Shown here: in pieces, positions 1-20,164 of the stretch
Numbering within the stretch: the stretch's first letter is position 1
Layout of the letters: each line of letters starts with the position of its first letter
Source: Chrysophaeum taylorii
Taxonomy: Eukaryota; Sar; Pelagophyceae; Pelagomonadales; Pelagomonadaceae
Assembly (NCBI GenBank): GCA_029834535.1
Contig: JAQMWT010000220.1
Location: 1 to 22,361 of the forward strand
DNA: 22,361 bases
Direction: 5' to 3'
Position numbers and translations under genes: made by a program
The notes under the pieces: model-generated
Database searches by the model: none
What the model was told of the DNA's origin: nothing
The model's input: the letters and a program-made list of their open reading frames with translations, nothing else

Positions 1-527
1 GTCGGCATAGGCATCGTCACCGAAGAGAAGGTGAAGCAAGCGGTGCCAGGGACATCGGTGGGGATTTCTTGGAAAATCAAAAAGCTTCATTGATCGGTTC
101 CCCGTCTTCATCTTTCTCGATCAATTTGTCGATAGGGTTGCGCGACAGACAATCCGGAATACGCATGCCAGGGAGCTTCCAGGTTTGTATCCGAGCTCCC
201 GGTCGAACGCAGCAAGCCGCATAGCCCATCGTGCTAACTGTCCAGACGTATGATTCGAATCCCGCAGAAACGTTAAATTACGATGATCCGTCTCTAACTT
301 CGTCTGATGACCTTCGATATAAAATCGGAAATTTTCGAGAGCAGAGAGTACTGCGAGGAGTTCCAAGCGCCGAGGATCATACTTCCTCATCGACTTAGGC
401 ACGGTTCGACTCCAGTACTCGATAACTCTCTCTTCGATTCTTTCTCTTCCATCGTCGTCAACGACTGGTACTTTTGAAATAGGTAAGCACCCAACCCATG
501 CGCGGAAGCATCAGTTCGAATGTAAAA
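1..527 (-). pseudogene. RNase H domain of the retrotransposon, frameshifted, cut by window edge
   Basis: RNase H removes the RNA template during reverse transcription. The fragments follow directly on the RT. RTDASAHGLGAYLF, the usual first catalytic Asp motif, is in one frame at about 527-480. EYWSRTVPKSMRKYDPRRLE and then TDHRNLTFL, with its expected Asp, are in another at about 430-180. LPGMRIPDCLSRNPIDKL, the typical end with SRNP, is in a third at about 185-130. Two of the shifts sit at short runs, a T4 near 524-527 and an A4 near 475, and each is repaired by one extra base, so they look like single-base deletions. Sequence beyond base 120 is still element but no integrase motif is reached. 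Confidence 0.75.
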
Positions 528-2494
528 GGCAACGAGTAATCAGGATGGTAGACGCCCTTCGACACAATAGCCTCGATGATGGCATCCCAAGCTTCCTGAC
601 ACTCTTTCGTCCACTTGAATTTCACGTCCGGCAACGTCAGTTGTCTTAATGGCTCTGCAACTTTCGCAAAATTCCTTACATAACGCCGGCTCCCCATTCC
701 AAGGAAAGATCGCACTTGCTTCTTAGGGTCAGCATCCGACAAAGTGCCAGGAATTGGCATGTGTCTGATGGCTTCTAAAGACCTTGGTGATGGAAGAAGT
801 CCGTTCGGGGTAGATAAATGACCCAAAAACTCAATGACTTCTTGCATAAAATGAATCTTCTTGATCTTGGCGCTGTACCCCTTCAAGGCGAGATGGGGAA
901 TAACTTGCACAAGGCACTGCAAGTGATTCTTTGTATCTGCGTGACCGGCGAGAATATCGTCGATATATGCCACGAGATCACGATATAGCCATTGCGACAA
1001 GTCAGTGTTCAACTGCTTGCAAAACAAACTTCCGGCTGGTTTGACTCCCAAAGGTAGACGCATGTAGCTGTACGCTCCCAGAGGACTAGTGAAGGTGACC
1101 ACATCTTGTGCATCTAGCGACAATCGTAAATTGTGATAGCCCCAACGAATATCCAAACTGGAACGACAAAACTTGTCAATGAGAAACATCAACGCGTCAG
1201 CCATGCTCACACTCGGCCAGCTATCATCCTTGAGCAATGCATTGAGGCGCCGTAGGTCGACAGCTGCTCTGTAAGCATTGGAAGTGCCAGGCTCAGCACC
1301 TTTCTTAGGCAACATCAAAATAGGGAAACCCCATGGAGAATTCGCGGGACGAATAACTCCGTCTCGGGTCCATGCTTCAATCTGCATCCGCAAACATTCA
1401 ATCTTTTCTTTCGACAACCGATATGGCGAGAGTTTGACGGGAGTCGGGTTCTCTTCTTTGAACCGGAGCGTCACTTCAGGTGAATCAACAGGTCTCATCA
1501 CATCATCGAAAAATGCCCACGAATACGAGATTAAATGCTTCATCATCAGCTTCTCGTCATCATCTAAAGCAGGATGCTCTGTAATACCCAATTCAGTCAT
1601 CACCTCTTCGACCTGCGCGACGGTCGGAGGGATGACCTGCATGCTCTCCTGATCCGCTAAATGAGGAGGCATCACCGGTGAAGGTTGACCATGTTCGTCG
1701 TGAGGCGCGTCCGCCCACGGAACGTCGTACGTATTGAAATACGCTGGTCGCTCTTTCGCGGTGCCTTCTTCTTCAGCAGTTGCGGAGGGCTGGTTATCAA
1801 CTTGGTTGCTCTGCATAACAGCAGTGGCGACATGGCGGGGTGGTGGGGCAGCAGCTGATGGTGCAGGACTCGCAGGAGAATAGAGTTCATCGGGCGCAAT
1901 CCATGATACACTTCGAGTGGCAGGGTCGAGCGTTGGAATGCGCGACTCTACAGCAAAAGGTGAAAACCGTAGAATATGGTGATCAGGTTGGGCTAGCGTA
2001 GTCGTCGCAATATTCCGCAACTTACCCAAATTTCGAAGTGAAGGTTCAAACGAATTGTGCACTGCTAGCGCAATCCGCGTCATAGTCGCGGGTGGCACCA
2101 TACTGCCAAGCATCTTCATAGCTACAGTCTCGGAAACTGTCGCACCCCATTGCCACGTAGCAGAAACGGTCATAATTTCCTGGTGCATCTGCAACGTGAG
2201 TGGACGGGTGTTCGAGAAATGAGGTCCTAAGTGGAGCTTATTGCGCGTCACCGTGAAGGCAGGGCCGATAGCCGGGCGCGTAGATGAGAAACTGTTCACT
2301 ATAATGAGCGGGTGACCACCTGTAAATCCCAACGCTGGGCCAAAACGGTCCCGTAAATTCGGTGGTACACGCGATAATAACGGCAGGTTCCAAGCGAACA
2401 TTGCAAGCAAGTAGGCGCGTGCGCGAGCACAGCAGCTCTGGCGTGATACTATAGAAATCAACAATACGCGGCACATAAAATTGGTGATGCACAA
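458..2494 (-). CDS. DNMT C-terminus, linker and Ty3/gypsy reverse transcriptase
   Basis: This 678-codon frame copies the element's RNA into DNA. Residues about 35-145 are the C-terminal part of the DNMT. Residues 150-340 form a Pro- and Ala-rich linker with no recognisable domain. Residues 350-560 are the RT: an entry motif PYRLSKEKIECLRMQI, GVIRPANSPWGFPILMLPKK, the first catalytic Asp at 448 in SSLDIRWGYH, MRLPLGVKPAG, and YIDD at 510-513 (bases 956-967), so all three catalytic aspartates are present. Residues 555-655 are the connection region (FLGHL, RSFLGMGSRRYVRNFA), as in gypsy pol. The ATG at 2494 is only where the frame opens and is probably not a real start, because the DNMT is read from upstream. 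Its last 20 or so codons are out of frame with the RNase H. Confidence 0.85.
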   Translation of the reverse strand: MCITNFMCRVLLISIVSRQSCCARARAYLLAMFAWNLPLLSRVPPNLRDRFGPALGFTGGHPLIIVNSFSSTRPAIGPAFTVTRNKLHLGPHFSNTRPLTLQMHQEIMTVSATWQWGATVSETVAMKMLGSMVPPATMTRIALAVHNSFEPSLRNLGKLRNIATTTLAQPDHHILRFSPFAVESRIPTLDPATRSVSWIAPDELYSPASPAPSAAAPPPRHVATAVMQSNQVDNQPSATAEEEGTAKERPAYFNTYDVPWADAPHDEHGQPSPVMPPHLADQESMQVIPPTVAQVEEVMTELGITEHPALDDDEKLMMKHLISYSWAFFDDVMRPVDSPEVTLRFKEENPTPVKLSPYRLSKEKIECLRMQIEAWTRDGVIRPANSPWGFPILMLPKKGAEPGTSNAYRAAVDLRRLNALLKDDSWPSVSMADALMFLIDKFCRSSLDIRWGYHNLRLSLDAQDVVTFTSPLGAYSYMRLPLGVKPAGSLFCKQLNTDLSQWLYRDLVAYIDDILAGHADTKNHLQCLVQVIPHLALKGYSAKIKKIHFMQEVIEFLGHLSTPNGLLPSPRSLEAIRHMPIPGTLSDADPKKQVRSFLGMGSRRYVRNFAKVAEPLRQLTLPDVKFKWTKECQEAWDAIIEAIVSKGVYHPDYSLPFTFELMLPRMGWVLTYFKSTSR

Positions 2495-2900
2495 AAGGGA
2501 TCACTGATGGTTCCTGCTCGAGCGTCCATCGTCCAATCACATAAGGTGCGTTGCGGAAATGACGCAGGACCCAAGAAGTAATAGTAGCGCCCTTGCGTGC
2601 GTCCCTGTAGCGCAAATTGGCAGTCGATCCATAGATACACGGCGGACTGGCGTGAAAATAAGAGTGCTTCCAAAAATCTGAGTGTAAATACGACAACACC
2701 AAGTCGTTGTACGATGATGAGATTTCCCCACTCATGCAAAACATAGGGAATCTTCGGAAAATTGAGTTCAAAGGTGGCTCGGGCTTGAGGACAAGCATCC
2801 AAGGCCAGGACAATGCGAAATGAACTGCCATATAGCTCATTGCATCGCCGGATACCCAACGTTGTTCCTCCAGCGCCAGCAAAGTCGACGACGACAAAGG
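2060..2900 (-). pseudogene. C5 cytosine DNA methyltransferase domain inside the retrotransposon, split over three frames
   Basis: The domain would transfer methyl groups from SAM to cytosine C5 in DNA. All main motifs can be read in the right order. Motif I (FAGAGG) and the SAM-side motif II (ALDACPQ) lie at about 2895-2760 in the gag frame. Motif IV (HASPPC) has its catalytic Cys codon at 2637-2639. Motif VI reads TLEQEP, where LENVP is usual, and keeps the catalytic Glu at 2517-2519. Motif VIII (CSRTRLLAC) is near 2400-2432. These three are in a second frame. The target-recognition end with RPLTLQ and motif X (MLGSMVPP, about 2110-2060) is in a third frame, joined to the RT. Two shifts, near 2760-2717 and near 2410-2380, therefore break it. 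These could be true decay or assembly errors in a repeat. At about 280 residues it is a minimal bacterial- or Dnmt2-sized domain without visible regulatory modules. Confidence 0.85.
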
Positions 2901-5900
2901 TGTAGGTGATGGGTATCCAAACCAAGGAGGCGTGCTTAGATAGCAGCTCCTTAGCAATCGCCTCCATCTCCATTTCTGGTGATTTTTTCACTTCTTCATC
3001 TGGAGGTGGCTGAGGAGGAGGTCTGTCACTCAAGACATCCTCCTCGACTTCATCGTCGTCAACAGCAGCCGTAAGAGTGGCATGACACACGTCATCATTG
3101 GCTTCTAGCTGCATGTTGACACATCCTTCATGCGGCATGATCTCGCCTTCGACCACCGGGACTTCGGGGTCGATACCAATGGGTTCGTCACCAATGTGCT
3201 CCACAGCCACATGAACTTCGTTGGGCTCATCAGCACAATACGATGAATAGGAACCAGGTACAAGGCGGAGATCTTTGAGGAGTGACCGATAAGGTCGGAA
3301 TACGTGACTCTTTTCCAGCGGCACATCGCACTCCATCTCCAAGAAGTACGGTTGGCTTGGAAGAAGAAATCGAGTACTCGTCACGTACGTGAAATGAGGG
3401 ATGATATCTTCCTCGTCTGCAGGGCATTCAAGTTGGTCTTCAGCTTTTCCAGCAGTCTGATCACCGGGAGGAATGTGATGGTGATTCGCTCTGATACGAA
3501 TAGAACGCAATAGACTGTCATAACTCCACGGTTTACCAACTGGCGTCCAAGTTTGGATATTTCCGTATTGCACAGCAAGCTTAGCTGTCGGGAACATCTG
3601 CACTACCTGCGGAGTCGCATCGAATGCATCATTGTAAAGGACAATTCCATGCTGGTCTTGTGGCGAGGCGGAAGTCCGATTCTTGAGAACTCCAATGGTC
3701 ACTTCAGAACGCCGAAAGATAGCTCTCTCTGTCGCATAATCCAAAATCGTACCCAAGAGTCGTAATTCTCGTGCTCCTAATAGTAACTGCCCATTCGTTT
3801 GACCAACGAAGAACATGAGCAGCATGGATGTCGTCGGCACCAAGGAGATCCGGAGAATGACCCATTCTCGAATAGCAGCTCCCGAACCTCCTGACCCATT
3901 TAGAGTACGAATCGTAGGGAGTGGCTGACGATAGATGATTTTGCCGTCACGATCAAGTTTGCGATACAAGCGGTGATCGATGTAGGGGGAATCAGCCATG
4001 CCATCCAAACCGGCAGCGATGATGGAATATTTCGAACCATCTTGCGAAGAGATAGCCACAGGCACATACGTCAAAGAGGCGGATCTCGTGCCATCGTACC
4101 TTACGGCTTTATTTTCACGATGGTCGGGATCCTGAGTGATATTCAACGCAGTCTGAGGGCAGAAATTCTCGAAATCCGAAGAGATGGAAGGGTGAGCAAC
4201 ATAACGCTCGGCACAGTCGTTCCTCGGTGGCACTATATCCATGGCAACCAAGGTATCTTGTCCCACACGAACAATCGTATACCCCAATTCGTCACGATTA
4301 TCTTCGTCTTCCGAAAGAACTCTAGATGCAACTCCAGTCACTTCGGTACTTTGCTCCTGCTCCTCCACCCATGCATCTTCAGTGATGACCAAAAAGGAAG
4401 GAGGTTCCATGGGGTCACCAGGGGAATAGCCTTCTGCAGAGAAGCTATCATCATCGCCCCCAACCTCGTCATCGTCATACACGTTGCCCTCCATGAGCTC
4501 ATAATGCTGTACAGTGCAGTAATCCGCTCGCTTAGTGTCATCCTGATCTTCGCCAAGCACTTCAAGCCACTGAGCGGCGACACCATCATTGTGCTGGCTA
4601 GGGTTCACTCTCTGAAACTGTCGCCCTCTACCCGGCGGAGCCATCTGCTGTGCCTGACGAATCAAGTTCATCGTGTTGAGAGCCGTAGTCAGATCCTCCA
4701 GGCGCACCGGGGTCTGAGCGGTCCGCTGCACTGCGGGCTGCCTTCGGAACACCTGTTGTTGAGAGCCTGCAACCAAACGCTGCTGAGTGCCTGCAACCAG
4801 CTGCTGTTGACCTGCACCTGGCACCTGTGCTGCTGTGTAGACCACCTGCGGCTGTTGCACAACGCGCGGCGCCAGCTGAGTCACTGAAGCTTGTCCTGCT
4901 GCAGCTAAAAGCGTCCGTCGGTATTGCTCCTGTCCCTCTGGCGTTGCTGGAAAACCCGCAGCCGTCAACGTCTGAGCAGCACGCCTCTTCCTCGAGGGAT
5001 TGTCCGGCACAGGACATACACCGTTGTCGTGGTGAAAACTACCATGCCGGCCGCAACTGAGGGACGTCGTAATTGCTTGGCGCGTATGGTTATCTATCCC
5101 CTGTGGTAGCCAGGTTCCAACTCCCGAGTCAGTAACATAACCAACCCGTTGGACTGGCTGCAACTGCTGCCTCTGCTGCTGCTGCTCTCTCCTCATTCGT
5201 GGTGCGTGCTCCTTTCCTTTCTCCTTCTTAATCGCATCTTCGATGTTGGCAGTAGGGTTGGCTTCCAGAATCTTGGAAATTTGGATGGTCAATTGAATGA
5301 CATCGTTGAGGGTGAGAGTAGATGCTTTCATATGCGGTGAGGCCTGAGCAAGTTCGACGCTCGTCCGCAAGCGCTCGGAATTGAGACCAGCAATAAAGTG
5401 CGAACGGAACGCAGCCGGATCAGTATCGCGACCTGACATTTCTCTCCACTGGCCGAATTTCTGCACCCATCGCGCGATATACTTATTCAATGACAAATTC
5501 CCTTGCCGTAAATTGAACCATTCACGTTCAAGCTCCTCAACCGTAGCCCGAGGTGGACAAGGAAGCTTCGTCGCCTCTTGCATAGCATCCAGACAGTCTT
5601 CATCATGCTGGCGCAACTCTTTCATTGTGATGGTCCCATCCTTGTATTGTTTCCACATCTGCGGCCGTTCAACTTCCCATTTGCGATAAGTTTCCATAGG
5701 GGCGAGTTGATACTCGCCTCCAATCACATTCATCGCTATTGAAGGTTTATCAATCTTGCCTTCCATCATACGCCGCAATTGCATCCACCACGCGTCCGCC
5801 TCATCACGGTCCTTGGTAATTTGCCCCGTGAGATTCGAAAATGTGATACGTGTCGTACCAGCAGCTCCCTTCTTGACACGAAGTATCTCTTCTTCGTCAC

Positions 5901-6366
5901 GAGGACGCGCCGAGCCGGGGTCAGTATGATGGTGCGGGGTAGGCTCCGGTCGACTTCGCGGTGGCTGATCGTCGGTCAGTGCCGATACAGCGTCATCATC
6001 GTCGTCGTCGGGCGTAACACGCGTAGCATTCGGAGAGGTTGGCCGTGCCTCTCGAGCATGCGCCCGCATGGATTCCTCCATCATTCGCCGAAGTCGATCG
6101 TTGTCGATCCGCTGTCGCTCCACTTCTGAGCGTTGTTGTTGAGCGTCGCGGCGGGTGTTCTCAAGTTCACGTATCATTTGCTCCATCTGCGACTGGTACA
6201 TCTCGAATCGTTCGTTGATGGTCTGCAGAACCTCGGGGTCGACATCCCCGCGAAAATCTGTCGCTCTCGTATTCACAGATGGTGGCCTAGGAGGTGCACT
6301 CTCCTCTGGTCCACGCATCGCCGTAAACGGTCCGGCTTCCGCTCGAGATGACTCCGTAGTGTTCAT
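2458..6366 (-). CDS. Gag-protease polyprotein running into DNMT motif I
   Basis: This open frame of 1302 codons encodes the structural and protease part of the element. Residues 45-105 are a predicted coiled coil rich in Glu, Gln and Arg. Residues about 180-370 look like a retrotransposon gag capsid domain, including a YIARWVQKFGQWREM stretch. Residues 438-451 form C-x2-H-x4-H-x4-C, a knuckle-like zinc site. A Gln-rich linker and acidic stretches follow. Residues about 775-885 are a retropepsin-like domain, with LDGMADS at 787-793 where D-S/T-G-A is expected, and a later LLLGARELRLLGTILDYA stretch matching the usual ILG part. Residues 1158-1203 are DNMT motifs I and II (DFAGAGG, then ALDACPQARATFELNFP). 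From about residue 1210 the frame leaves the DNMT and reads nonsense to its stop, so the meaningful part is roughly 2720-6366. The ATG at 6366 is the first in frame after an upstream TGA. Confidence 0.85.
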   Translation of the reverse strand: MNTTESSRAEAGPFTAMRGPEESAPPRPPSVNTRATDFRGDVDPEVLQTINERFEMYQSQMEQMIRELENTRRDAQQQRSEVERQRIDNDRLRRMMEESMRAHAREARPTSPNATRVTPDDDDDDAVSALTDDQPPRSRPEPTPHHHTDPGSARPRDEEEILRVKKGAAGTTRITFSNLTGQITKDRDEADAWWMQLRRMMEGKIDKPSIAMNVIGGEYQLAPMETYRKWEVERPQMWKQYKDGTITMKELRQHDEDCLDAMQEATKLPCPPRATVEELEREWFNLRQGNLSLNKYIARWVQKFGQWREMSGRDTDPAAFRSHFIAGLNSERLRTSVELAQASPHMKASTLTLNDVIQLTIQISKILEANPTANIEDAIKKEKGKEHAPRMRREQQQQRQQLQPVQRVGYVTDSGVGTWLPQGIDNHTRQAITTSLSCGRHGSFHHDNGVCPVPDNPSRKRRAAQTLTAAGFPATPEGQEQYRRTLLAAAGQASVTQLAPRVVQQPQVVYTAAQVPGAGQQQLVAGTQQRLVAGSQQQVFRRQPAVQRTAQTPVRLEDLTTALNTMNLIRQAQQMAPPGRGRQFQRVNPSQHNDGVAAQWLEVLGEDQDDTKRADYCTVQHYELMEGNVYDDDEVGGDDDSFSAEGYSPGDPMEPPSFLVITEDAWVEEQEQSTEVTGVASRVLSEDEDNRDELGYTIVRVGQDTLVAMDIVPPRNDCAERYVAHPSISSDFENFCPQTALNITQDPDHRENKAVRYDGTRSASLTYVPVAISSQDGSKYSIIAAGLDGMADSPYIDHRLYRKLDRDGKIIYRQPLPTIRTLNGSGGSGAAIREWVILRISLVPTTSMLLMFFVGQTNGQLLLGARELRLLGTILDYATERAIFRRSEVTIGVLKNRTSASPQDQHGIVLYNDAFDATPQVVQMFPTAKLAVQYGNIQTWTPVGKPWSYDSLLRSIRIRANHHHIPPGDQTAGKAEDQLECPADEEDIIPHFTYVTSTRFLLPSQPYFLEMECDVPLEKSHVFRPYRSLLKDLRLVPGSYSSYCADEPNEVHVAVEHIGDEPIGIDPEVPVVEGEIMPHEGCVNMQLEANDDVCHATLTAAVDDDEVEEDVLSDRPPPQPPPDEEVKKSPEMEMEAIAKELLSKHASLVWIPITYTFVVVDFAGAGGTTLGIRRCNELYGSSFRIVLALDACPQARATFELNFPKIPYVLHEWGNLIIVQRLGVVVFTLRFLEALLFSRQSAVYLWIDCQFALQGRTQGRYYYFLGPASFPQRTLCDWTMDARAGTISDPFCASPILCAAYC

Positions 6367-6808: not shown

Positions 6809-6889
6809 TATTAGCCTTAGCTCCTGTCGGTCCGGCCTGGCTCCCATGCTCGGGAGAGGTCTGAAGTTAGTTAGTTAGTTATTAGCCTT
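6809..6889 (+). mobile_element. 61-bp 5'-truncated retroposon fragment with TTAG tail and 10-bp TSD
   Basis: TATTAGCCTT occurs at 6809-6818 and again at 6880-6889. Between them lie 61 bases ending in tandem TTAG units. The core from 6820 matches 16775-16824 with about one mismatch in 50. Exact flanking repeats plus a short tandem tail are the signature of target-primed reverse transcription, so this is a severely 5'-truncated copy of the same LINE or SINE family as the 351-bp copy at 16490-16840. It carries no coding capacity. Confidence 0.8.
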
Positions 6890-7153: not shown

Positions 7154-7226
7154 AAACAGGAGATCGATAGTCCGGGAGTTGGACTATCGATTCCCGTTTC
7201 TGAGACCACTGTAGTGGTTTTCTCAG
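7154..7226. repeat. Two abutting hairpins
   Basis: The first stem has a perfect 11-bp core, ATCGATAGTCC at 7163-7173 against 7181-7191, with a 7-base loop. It extends outward by 8 more pairs (7154-7161 with 7192-7199), with one bulged G and one mismatch. The second hairpin starts at the next base: CTGAGA and CCAC at 7200-7209 pair with GTGG and TCTCAG at 7214-7226, with an unpaired T stretch on one side. No gene lies here. It may be part of the retrotransposon's LTR or leader, or a terminator. The function is unknown. Confidence 0.55.
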
Positions 7227-7542
7227 ATACCCGCCCCTCCTGGCCGGACCAGAGGCCTCAACAACCCTTCCTCCCAACCCGAACCGCGGGTGAAACCACC
7301 ACACGCCCGATCTCAGCGTAATACCTCACGCCATCACGAAATCGGACAATCAAAAGAGGGTAATATCAAGAAGACAGCAAGAAAGCAATACAAATGCCCG
7401 GTACATTGGGTCCAGTGGAAGCGCAGGTGAAGGTGTCGAGATGACCCCCCCCATAAATGCAAGGTCAATACCAGGGCAACAATCAGGGTAAGTCAGGTGG
7501 CAGGCAGGCAAGTGGGGGAAATGGGCGTTACTGCCACACCCC

Positions 7543-16476: not shown

Positions 16477-16853
16477 AAGTCTTTTGAGACCCTTACCCTG
16501 ATCGCCGACTGTGCCTCATGAATCCTGAGCCTTGCGAGGGCATCCGCCCTCCCGGCGTAGGTTGGCACCTATTCGCCTCCCGGGCGGGCCGGTTGGCAGC
16601 CGGAACGTTCGCAGTGGGACGGGGTATGGCCGGGGGGCGAAGACGGAAGGTTATCGACGAGTTGGTTGTCAGTCACATCGCGGTCTCCTCGTCGCATGGC
16701 GACAAGCTTGATGGTCACTCTCCGCCGACCGACCTTTCGGCGCTCCTCGGCTACAGGCCCGTGATTCCGGACTGGCTCCTGTCGGTCCGACCTGGCTCCC
16801 ATGCTCGGGAGAGGTCTGAAGTTAGTTTAGTTAGTTAGTGAAGTCTTTTGAGA
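16477..16853 (+). mobile_element. 351-bp non-LTR retroposon (SINE or truncated LINE) with 13-bp TSD
   Basis: AAGTCTTTTGAGA is present at 16477-16489 and again at 16841-16853. Between them 16490-16840 ends in irregular TTAG units. Its last 65 bases match the fragment at 6819-6879. The exact duplication and tail show insertion by target-primed reverse transcription in plus orientation. I see no clear tRNA-like A and B boxes at its left end, so it may be a LINE 3' end rather than a tRNA-derived SINE. An internal 106-codon frame shows no RT or endonuclease motif. It lies between the EF-hand remnant and the sulfotransferase-like gene. Confidence 0.85.
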
Positions 16854-19025: not shown

Positions 19026-19434
19026 GGCCGCCGGGTCCCTGGCGGCACTCCGACGGTTAGGCTAGCGCCTAGCCGTCGTATGCCCACTCGTGATTACACC
19101 CACTCACCCCACTCTCCTTTGAGCTCGACGCTCCCAACCCCCGCCACTCTAAGCTGCTTTTGATCCGCGCGCGCTCGCTAACCATTGCGTTTACTCCTAA
19201 ACCTTCAAAAAGGTAAGCTTCTCGTCTGTTTTTTCTGTCTGTCTGTGTGTTTGTCCCCCCGAATCAGGGCTTAGGAGTAAACTCAAAGGTTAGCGAACAT
19301 GCGCTGATCAAAGCAGCTTAGAGTGGCGGGGGTGAGAGCGTCGAGCTGAAAGGAGAGTGGGGTGAGTGGGGGTTAGGGGGGCGGCAAGGCGCTAGCAGCC
19401 TAACCGTCCGGATGCCGCGAGGGACCCGGCGGCC
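19026..19434. mobile_element. 409-bp foldback or MITE-like element with about 170-bp inverted arms
   Basis: The left arm 19026-19203 and right arm 19268-19434 are inverted copies, by eye about 85 percent identical over some 165 positions, with one larger gap. Both ends start GGCCGCCGGGTCCCT, and both arms end near ACTCCTAA. A loop of 64 bases containing TCTG/TGTC runs separates them. No clear target-site duplication flanks it. A 17-base direct repeat, CGAATCAGGGYTTAGGA, lies at 19260-19276 and 19450-19466, around the right arm. There is no ORF. A non-autonomous foldback transposon is most likely. A transcript would form a long hairpin. Confidence 0.75.
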
Positions 19435-19488: not shown

Positions 19489-19781
19489 ATGACCTCCAAG
19501 CCGTCGTCTACAGTACTGTATGGCGAGTTCCCCTTAATGCCCGCTTTCGCCAAAACGATCAACAAGAGCCAGGGCCAGACGCCCCGCAAGGTCGGCGTCC
19601 TCTTGCCCAAGCCCGTCTTCAGCCACGGCCAGGTCTACGTGGCTCTCTGCCGAGTCGACAAGCCCGAGGACATCTCGTGTACTGGGTCGACGACTCCACC
19701 CCCTATACCCCACGTTGCGCAATATCAACAACCCCCGCCGTCTACACGCGCAATGTCGTCTACTGCGAGGTTCTCGGGTAG
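19489..19781 (+). pseudogene. Helitron/PIF1-type helicase C-terminal relic
   Basis: FPLMPAFAKTINKSQGQT at 19528-19581 is the helicase motif region typical of PIF1 and Helitron helicases, followed by KVGVLLPKPVFSHGQVYVAL and RVDKPEDI. After one shift near 19676, the neighbouring frame continues VYWVDDSTPYTP and ends YTRNVVYCEVLG with a stop at 19779-19781, as these helicases do. Nothing of the ATPase Walker motifs or the Rep/HUH part is found to the left, where the foldback element lies. It is therefore only the last 90 or so codons. The SHGQ/YVAL/TRNVVY combination favours Helitron over cellular PIF1, but the two cannot be separated with certainty. Confidence 0.75.
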
Positions 19782-19837
19782 CGGTAGCCGCCCCCTCTCC
19801 TGCTGCAGAGGCGTTGAGCGCAGAGCGCAGCAGGCCG

Positions 19838-20164
19838 CAGCACCGACTCATGCGCGTTGAACAGTGAACGAAGAGGTGGTGCACGCTGAAAAGGACGAGT
19901 GTTTGCGAGGGACCGGGTCGAAGTGAGCGCAGCACGAGACTGTGTGGGGTTTGAGAATTGTGACCGAATGAACTTACTGCCCTGCACTGCCTATCCCCGC
20001 AGCACCGAGTCATTCATTTCGAACAGAGAACGATGACGTGGGGCACCCTTCGAAGGGCGACTGTTTGCGATGGGAAAACGCGCAGCACGAAAGGGGTTGA
20101 TAGGGGACCAGGTGAATGCGGAGTATGGGATTTGGGACCAGTGGTGAACTTGCTGGCCTGCACT
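19838..20164 (+). repeat. Two-copy diverged direct repeat, period about 161 bp
   Basis: Unit one (from 19838) and unit two (from 19999) both begin GCAGCACCGASTCAT, share a GAACAG-GAACGA stretch and CTGTTTGCGA or GTGTTTGCGA, and end near CCTGCACT (19981-19988 and 20156-20163). They differ at many positions. The pair follows the helicase relic and may belong to the 3' noncoding part of the same Helitron. Confidence 0.5.

Follow-up and report, generated by a model that had tools for sequence, protein, structure and literature searches.

The element in the window

We analyzed contig JAQMWT010000220.1 (C220), a stretch of 22,361 nucleotides that we call the window, within a genome of 70.8 Mb and 697 contigs. 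Its first 7.5 kb hold a single element on the minus strand, truncated by the contig start. An original prediction, made from the sequence alone, had described this element as a Ty3/gypsy retrotransposon carrying its own C5 DNA methyltransferase (DNMT) between the protease and the reverse transcriptase (RT). We read the following features from it.

7210..7538, minus strand: 5′ long terminal repeat (LTR), 329 bp, with TG...CA ends (sequence reading)
7187..7208, minus strand: primer-binding-site-like sequence that starts with TGG, one base inside the LTR (sequence reading)
2458..6366, minus strand: open frame of 1302 codons with a gag-like part, a protease-like motif and DNMT motifs I–II
3985–4005, minus strand: protease-like motif (motif reading; without a Pfam match)
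2722..2964, minus strand: first DNMT segment (motifs I and II), 93% identical to copy L039
2259..2705, minus strand: middle DNMT segment (motifs IV, VI and VIII) in another frame (comparison with other copies)
2003..2479, minus strand: last DNMT segment (motif X) in the RT frame, with a weak PF00145 match in the same frame
Minus strand: DNMT motifs I (2866–2898), II (2782–2805), IV (2637–2654), VI (2508–2522), VIII (2409–2426) and X (2090–2113)
818..1309, minus strand: RT core (RVT_1, Pfam E 1.4e-13), with YIDD at 956–967
121..402, minus strand: RNase H (RT_RNaseH, E 2.3e-15)

Because the contig starts within the element, the integrase and the 3′ LTR lie outside the window. The LTR stretch (7538–7209) is repeated at the 3′ end of L039 (9634–9961, 94%), and the L039 polyprotein tracks the 1302-codon frame across 5919–2722 (95%, tblastn). 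The gag-like and protease-like labels are presumptive, based on motif reading beside Pfam matches that are weak (Retrotrans_gag, 14.1 bits, below the cut-off) or absent.

The protease-like motif and RT flank DNMT motifs I, II, IV, VI, VIII and X, which keep their order on one strand, as had been proposed, and the proposed interval, 2060–2900, fits the homologous domain at 2003–2964. In this copy the domain is spread over three frames, with motifs I and II in the protease-like frame, motifs IV, VI and VIII in a second and motif X in the RT frame. With the PF00145 model (Pfam DNA_methylase) the first and last segments scored 14.5 bits (E 0.024) and 11.6 bits (E 0.18), respectively, below its cut-off of 22 bits, and a Pfam scan of the middle segment gave nothing at E ≤ 1. 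Broken frames and scores of this kind lend themselves to another explanation, in which a host DNMT lies beside an old element by chance or misassembly. The other copies bear on this.

The methyltransferase domain in other copies

An 811-base DNA query from the region gave at least 40 matches, comprising the window and 39 other places, at 96–98% identity (40 of 164 candidates scored). The domain is free of stops in at least 20 of 38 distinct copies. This count comes from motif strings and is a lower bound over best-scoring rather than randomly drawn loci; L012 and L039 are one copy, and the window copy, L049, L050 and L055 were excluded. PF00145 matched all 20 unbroken copies at E ≤ 0.01, and no other Pfam family matched these domains at that threshold. 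The Pfam check named in the original prediction thus fails on all three window segments and succeeds on every unbroken copy. Scores above the 22-bit cut-off were obtained for L040 (30.8 bits) and L041 (28.2 bits) in a scan of whole frames, and again for L040 (38.6 bits) in the scan of the 20 copies.

The 20 copies all keep F, G and GG of motif I, D of motif II, the first P and C of motif IV, E of motif VI, both R of motif VIII (RxR), and S, V and the first P of motif X. Nearly invariant are the second P of motif IV, Q of motif VI and the last P of motif X (19 of 20 each), as well as the first G of motif X (17 of 20). The Pfam matches and this conservation confirm, as far as sequence can, that the DNMT of the window element is real and above chance.

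Subfamilies and polyprotein order

The family comprises three subfamilies: 1a, to which the window copy belongs; 1b (L040 and L041); and 1c (L054, L057 and L058). DNMT identity is 82–86% between 1a and 1b and 41–42% between 1c and L040. A single open frame of 2115 codons in L041 contains a protease-like motif, DNMT, RT, RNase H and integrase (Pfam). Behind the protease-like motif, Pfam placed these domains in the L041 frame:

1068–1231: RVT_1
1327–1439: RT_RNaseH
1611–1669: Integrase_H2C2
1692–1781: rve (29.4 bits, below the cut-off of 32.6)

Motif strings reveal the same order in L058, in one open frame of at least 3059 codons. In the PDB, the RT/RNase H stretch of L041 matched Ty3 RT best (4ol8, 3.1e-45), with the Ty3 Gag-Pol entry next. 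We assign the family to Ty3/gypsy on the order of protease, RT, RNase H and integrase in L041 and on the Ty3-type RT as nearest match; the window copy also has an LTR and a primer-like site. With the L041 frame, the 20 PF00145 matches and the Ty3-like RT, the claim of a DNMT fused between protease and RT holds, and the window element is almost certainly a decayed copy of a Ty3/gypsy LTR family with a C5 methyltransferase in this position of Pol.

Genome searches with a piece of the 1b DNMT yielded at least 132 matches (124 of 925 candidates scored), and a 1c piece yielded at least 150 (150 of 776). Together with two further places (on C220 and C530), the 1b-piece matches amount to at least 122 distinct DNMT places. 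The 1c search included 26 matches with an identical score of 327.7 bits, as expected of near-identical proteins. Seven 1c copies show 96.9–98.2% DNA identity in the longest stretch that aligns, so subfamily 1c is fairly young.

A DNMT lies upstream in 44 of 69 gypsy-class RT hits (31 + 13), with spacing that is mostly near-constant within a subfamily. The 69 hits are the low-score, gypsy-type class chosen from those listed among 152 RVT_1 matches, leaving aside contig C696 and four short hits (on C405, C677, C242 and C81); the high-score class was sampled by one hit (L051 on C569), a LINE by eye. The remaining 19 of the 69 fall in no class, and the DNMT-search matches behind the tally are the best-scored portion of the candidates. 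This arrangement, the unbroken polyproteins and the relatives found elsewhere (below) all speak against chance or misassembly, which we hold refuted because flanks and contigs differ between copies.

Copies without the methyltransferase

The original prediction had named copies lacking the DNMT as grounds for its refutation, and some were found. At least four copies share one deletion (L050 on C335, and copies on C209, C394 and C248; 40 of 96 candidates scored). In L050 the gap is 1108 bp relative to L040, with flanks that are otherwise 98–99% identical. At least two of the 69 RT hits show another short joint, with a further partial match (81%) at C299:20771. Compared with a DNMT copy of 98% identity, the L050 joint reads as a deletion, and at least four copies have it in common, so the loss is secondary.

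We also considered a DNMT-free ancestor for L050 and rejected it, given flanks 98–99% identical to those of a DNMT copy and a gap length that is not a multiple of three. The shared-deletion copies are a possible natural control.

Selection and age of the capture

Between subfamilies 1a and 1b, dN/dS was 0.067–0.076 in the DNMT, 0.032–0.039 in RT, 0.107–0.118 in the protease stretch and 0.28–0.31 in the linker behind the DNMT; dS is near saturation in DNMT and RT and lower (0.51–0.59) in the linker. These substitution patterns show purifying selection on the DNMT domain between subfamilies. Values within 1a were noisier (DNMT, 0.06–0.29; RT, 0.38–0.56), and the DNMT differences between two 1c copies were all synonymous (pS 0.032, pN 0). 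Pairs with L055 gave 0.73–0.80, probably owing to out-of-frame reading of part of that copy.

Trees of the DNMT and of RT share one topology over five members (1a, 1b, 1c and two proteins from elsewhere, P0001 and P0003, described below). The domain has therefore probably travelled with RT since before these five split.

Relatives elsewhere

A first relative, P0001 (from Logan and ENA), shows 32% identity across 91% of the domain. Through it we found P0003 (JGI) and two proteins that bear the name Aureococcus anophagefferens, P0002 and P0004. In P0001 and P0003 the domain is followed by RT, RNase H and integrase, and P0004 reads by eye as gag-like, protease-like and DNMT-like parts and the start of an RT. 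The two Aureococcus proteins, AURANDRAFT_67346 and AURANDRAFT_67350 (P0002 and P0004), resemble the P0001 domain at 53% and 61% identity, and P0002 shares 32% identity with the 1c DNMT; the two proteins differ in being hypothetical protein entries with PSC at motif IV and without a PF00145 match of their own. The prediction that such elements reach a lineage besides dinoflagellates and charophytes is borne out by these named relatives, and the data are consistent with a stramenopile host for the window, no more; a psaB search of the PDB singled out no group.

No relative of P0001 was found among viral contigs. With the 1c DNMT, tblastn gave weak matches in phages (best E 0.2; seven records, two labelled DNA methyltransferase) and in plasmids (best E 0.01; 19 records, with a cytosine methyltransferase label on seven of the ten listed).

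A fold search with a model of the P0001 domain returned weak PDB matches, dehydrogenases first and DNMTs from rank 26, and was discarded as support.

A second methyltransferase in Ty1/copia elements

A genome search with PF00145 gave at least 57 matches (123 of 474 candidates scored), two of which are genes outside elements. L001 (C634) is a DNMT2-type gene (PDB 1g55, 3.9e-39) and L002 (C621) a DNMT5-type gene (PDB 7r76, 3e-143; the entry is labelled Rad8 and we take it to be Dnmt5). Of the other 55 matches we inspected ten: nine carry a DNMT of a copia family and the tenth (L045) was seen at its frame start only. With ten of these 55 inspected, and intron-split genes able to escape such a search, the genome may hold further DNMT genes.

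The inspected loci L042–L044 and L003–L008 are Ty1/copia-family sequences, separate from the gypsy family, in which the DNMT lies behind a protease-like motif. In L042, one frame of 1952 codons has a protease-like D-G-G-A motif near residue 80 and these Pfam domains:

349–475: PF00145
1016–1110: rve (17.2 bits, cut-off 32.6)
1686–1933: RVT_2 (133 bits)

The integrase ahead of an RVT_2-type RT places L042 in Ty1/copia, and L043 is similar by eye; the copia integrase and RT were observed in these two loci, by Pfam and by eye, respectively. PF00145 matched the copia DNMT domain in six of six copies, and dN/dS was 0.10–0.29 among eight copies (L045 left out). The L042 DNMT aligns over 62% with a DNA methyltransferase of a phage (25%, E 1e-6). 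In a protein search the copia DNMT region had no match at E ≤ 0.01, and phmmer searches of the PDB with the copia DNMT and the copia RT gave none either.

One capture or two

The gypsy family profile had eight PDB matches at E ≤ 10, all weak and covering mainly motifs I–II. The best (E 0.0071) was DNMT2; DNMT2/tRNA enzymes made up four of the eight and bacterial enzymes were also matched, while no DNMT3 chain appeared among these eight. With DNMT2 and bacterial enzymes among these weak hits and no DNMT3 chain, an independent capture, which the original prediction had raised as a possibility, is likely.

When profiles of the gypsy and copia DNMTs were compared, the probability came to 0.1%. The gypsy set together with P0001–P0003 matched phage MoxS/Hades at 87% (46 columns) and DNMT2 at 79% (74 columns); without P0001–P0003 these values were 77% and 17%. 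The copia set matched phage vir335 at 97% over 202 columns. The control calls for caution: DNMT2 set against DNMT5, both genuine enzymes, reached 0.2% in that comparison, and the low gypsy–copia value is thus no proof of separate origin. The two DNMTs are clearly different by sequence and occupy a corresponding slot, behind the protease, in different superfamilies. Two captures are the simplest reading and a likely one, though unproven.

DNMT5 is a maintenance enzyme. In a wider scenario, Ty3 and Ty1 elements would each have acquired a C5 methyltransferase of their own directly after the protease, where it would travel in the particle with RT, and in a host whose sole two identified non-element DNMTs are of DNMT2 and DNMT5 type, retrotransposons would supply de novo methylation that the host then copies. 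We regard this combined scenario as tentative and, on balance, doubtful, and the DNMT2–DNMT5 control made it slightly less likely in our view.

Proposed role of the domain

The likeliest role for the DNMT domain would be to methylate the cDNA of its own element, an expectation from element biology to which we give about even chances. The DNMT would be packaged with RT in the particle, either cut out or left linked to Pol, and would methylate the new cDNA, or its hybrid, prior to integration. The host DNMT5-type enzyme would then maintain the mark, and new copies could thus arrive pre-methylated and be tolerated or go unrecognised. Taken as a whole, the explanation that we favor, and hold to be probable, is a Ty3/gypsy Pol with a C5 DNMT that is packaged, methylates new cDNA and leaves a mark kept by a host DNMT5-type enzyme.

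Action in the particle is favored by the fusion of the DNMT into Pol ahead of RT. Retrotransposon accessory methylases have also been suggested to be antiviral (PMC6338049), and the enzyme might accordingly act in trans on host or competitor DNA, in offence or defence, rather than on its own cDNA. We think this quite improbable: the domain is fused in Pol ahead of RT in unbroken frames (e.g., L012, L013, L016, L040, L041 and L058), and nothing in the present data indicates a target in trans.

Several observations weigh against methylation of the element's own DNA by an active enzyme. Motif VI reads EQ instead of EN, and the NCBIfam dcm model scores L040 at 22.2 bits against a cut-off of 100.65. 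Motif IV is PSC, not PPC, in P0001–P0003; PF00145 stays below its cut-off in P0001 (13.2 bits) and P0003 (13.3 bits) and has no match in P0002 or P0004, both of which were placed by similarity to P0001. An AlphaFold model of the P0001 domain, built with four rows, had a pLDDT of 38.3, too low to reveal a fold. Between the two 1b copies dN/dS was 0.67 in the DNMT, on very few changes, and 0.31 in RT. DNMT-less copies exist. At CG sites the transition frequency was 0.0364 compared to 0.0294 at other C/G sites, a ratio of 1.24 built from pairwise counts with shared ancestry (30 copies, the window included). The CG observed/expected ratio was 0.995–1.285 across the window element and seven sampled stretches of elements, a LINE stretch (1.212) among them; the rest of the window, which is GC-richer, gave 1.382. 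Since the CG excess is weak, CG methylation, if it occurs, has left little trace.

The altered motif VI, the PSC of some relatives and the deletion common to at least four copies would also suit a passenger domain that does not catalyse but is retained for a structural role or for binding nucleic acid. We find a passenger unlikely in view of the motif IV Cys, motif VI Glu, both motif VIII Arg and the motif I glycines, invariant in all 20 unbroken copies, and of the low dN/dS between subfamilies.

The main alternative to cDNA methylation is that the domain methylates RNA, either element RNA or the tRNA primer, as DNMT2 does with tRNA. DNMT2 heads the PDB matches of the family profile, half of which are DNMT2/tRNA enzymes; the CG footprint in DNA is not strong; and the element has a primer-site-like stretch. 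The weakness of those PDB matches, with their restriction mainly to motifs I–II, and a phage-enzyme profile match that at least equals the DNMT2 match make an RNA target improbable in our estimation.

Relation to known systems

DNMT-bearing retrotransposons are already known (de Mendoza et al., 2018), and a DNMT in Copia is not new in itself. Methylation of new copies by a retrotransposon's own DNMT is the proposal of those authors (PMC5890265), who cite two earlier studies linking DNMTs and RTs, Iyer et al. (2011) among them. They report that SymbioDIRS DNMTs gave CG methylation in yeast and that a Gypsy DNMT gave none, a result they call inconclusive.

The closest system described there is KnitGypsy-Dnmt3 of Klebsormidium nitens, in which an intronless DNMT lies inside the Pol of an LTR Gypsy element under purifying selection (Ka/Ks < 0.2). 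It differs in that its enzyme is a Dnmt3 and its repeat structure is DIRS-like according to the figure legend, whereas the present element has an ordinary-looking LTR, belongs to another lineage and lacks a DNMT3 chain among the weak PDB matches of its profile. SymbioDIRS-Dnmt3 and SymbioLINE-Dnmt of Symbiodinium likewise comprise many intronless DNMT copies in retrotransposons, but these are LINE and DIRS elements, and Symbiodinium Copia is said to lack a DNMT (PMC5890265). One sentence of PMC12344493 (2025), as far as that text is accessible, puts DNMT3 members in "LTR Copia and DIRS" elements; these are credited to streptophytes and dinoflagellates, and no element like the present one is described. 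Elements encoding DAM and DCM occur in stramenopiles according to the accessible part of PMC6338049, where the present one is unnamed. In the accessible portions of the open-access literature (PMC5890265, PMC9998398, PMC6338049, PMC12344493, PMC12477816 and PMC9861306) we found neither a DNMT between Ty3 protease and RT in the present lineage nor a genome with different DNMTs in Ty3 and Ty1 elements.

So far, captured DNMTs have been described from two lineages, in LINE, DIRS and Gypsy elements. The present capture appears to go far back within its element family and to have been maintained by selection; it is spread through a large family of similar copies and was apparently repeated at the corresponding slot of a second superfamily. 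What a retrotransposon gains from self-methylation could be tested within one genome by comparing the subfamilies with the DNMT-less deletion copies and with LINEs. The system also bears on the source of de novo methylation in algae with DNMT5.

Other features of the window and genome

Between 8213 and 22233 the window holds host-like genes, with Pfam matches in four of nine open frames scanned: an EF-hand/EH protein, a protein kinase, a DHHC palmitoyltransferase and a ribosomal L15 type. The repeat at 16518–16838 / 16775–16827 is shared with 6820–6872 (98%) and, by reading, with the tail of L019. Nested inverted repeats at 19026–19434 and 19489–19860, part of which is also present in L046, adjoin an open frame that we presume to resemble the end of a Pif1/Helitron helicase (without a Pfam match). 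Elsewhere in the genome, contig C696 has eight RT frames of 565–716 aa, which may be organellar group II introns, and two PsaA_PsaB genes on C697 indicate a photosynthetic host.

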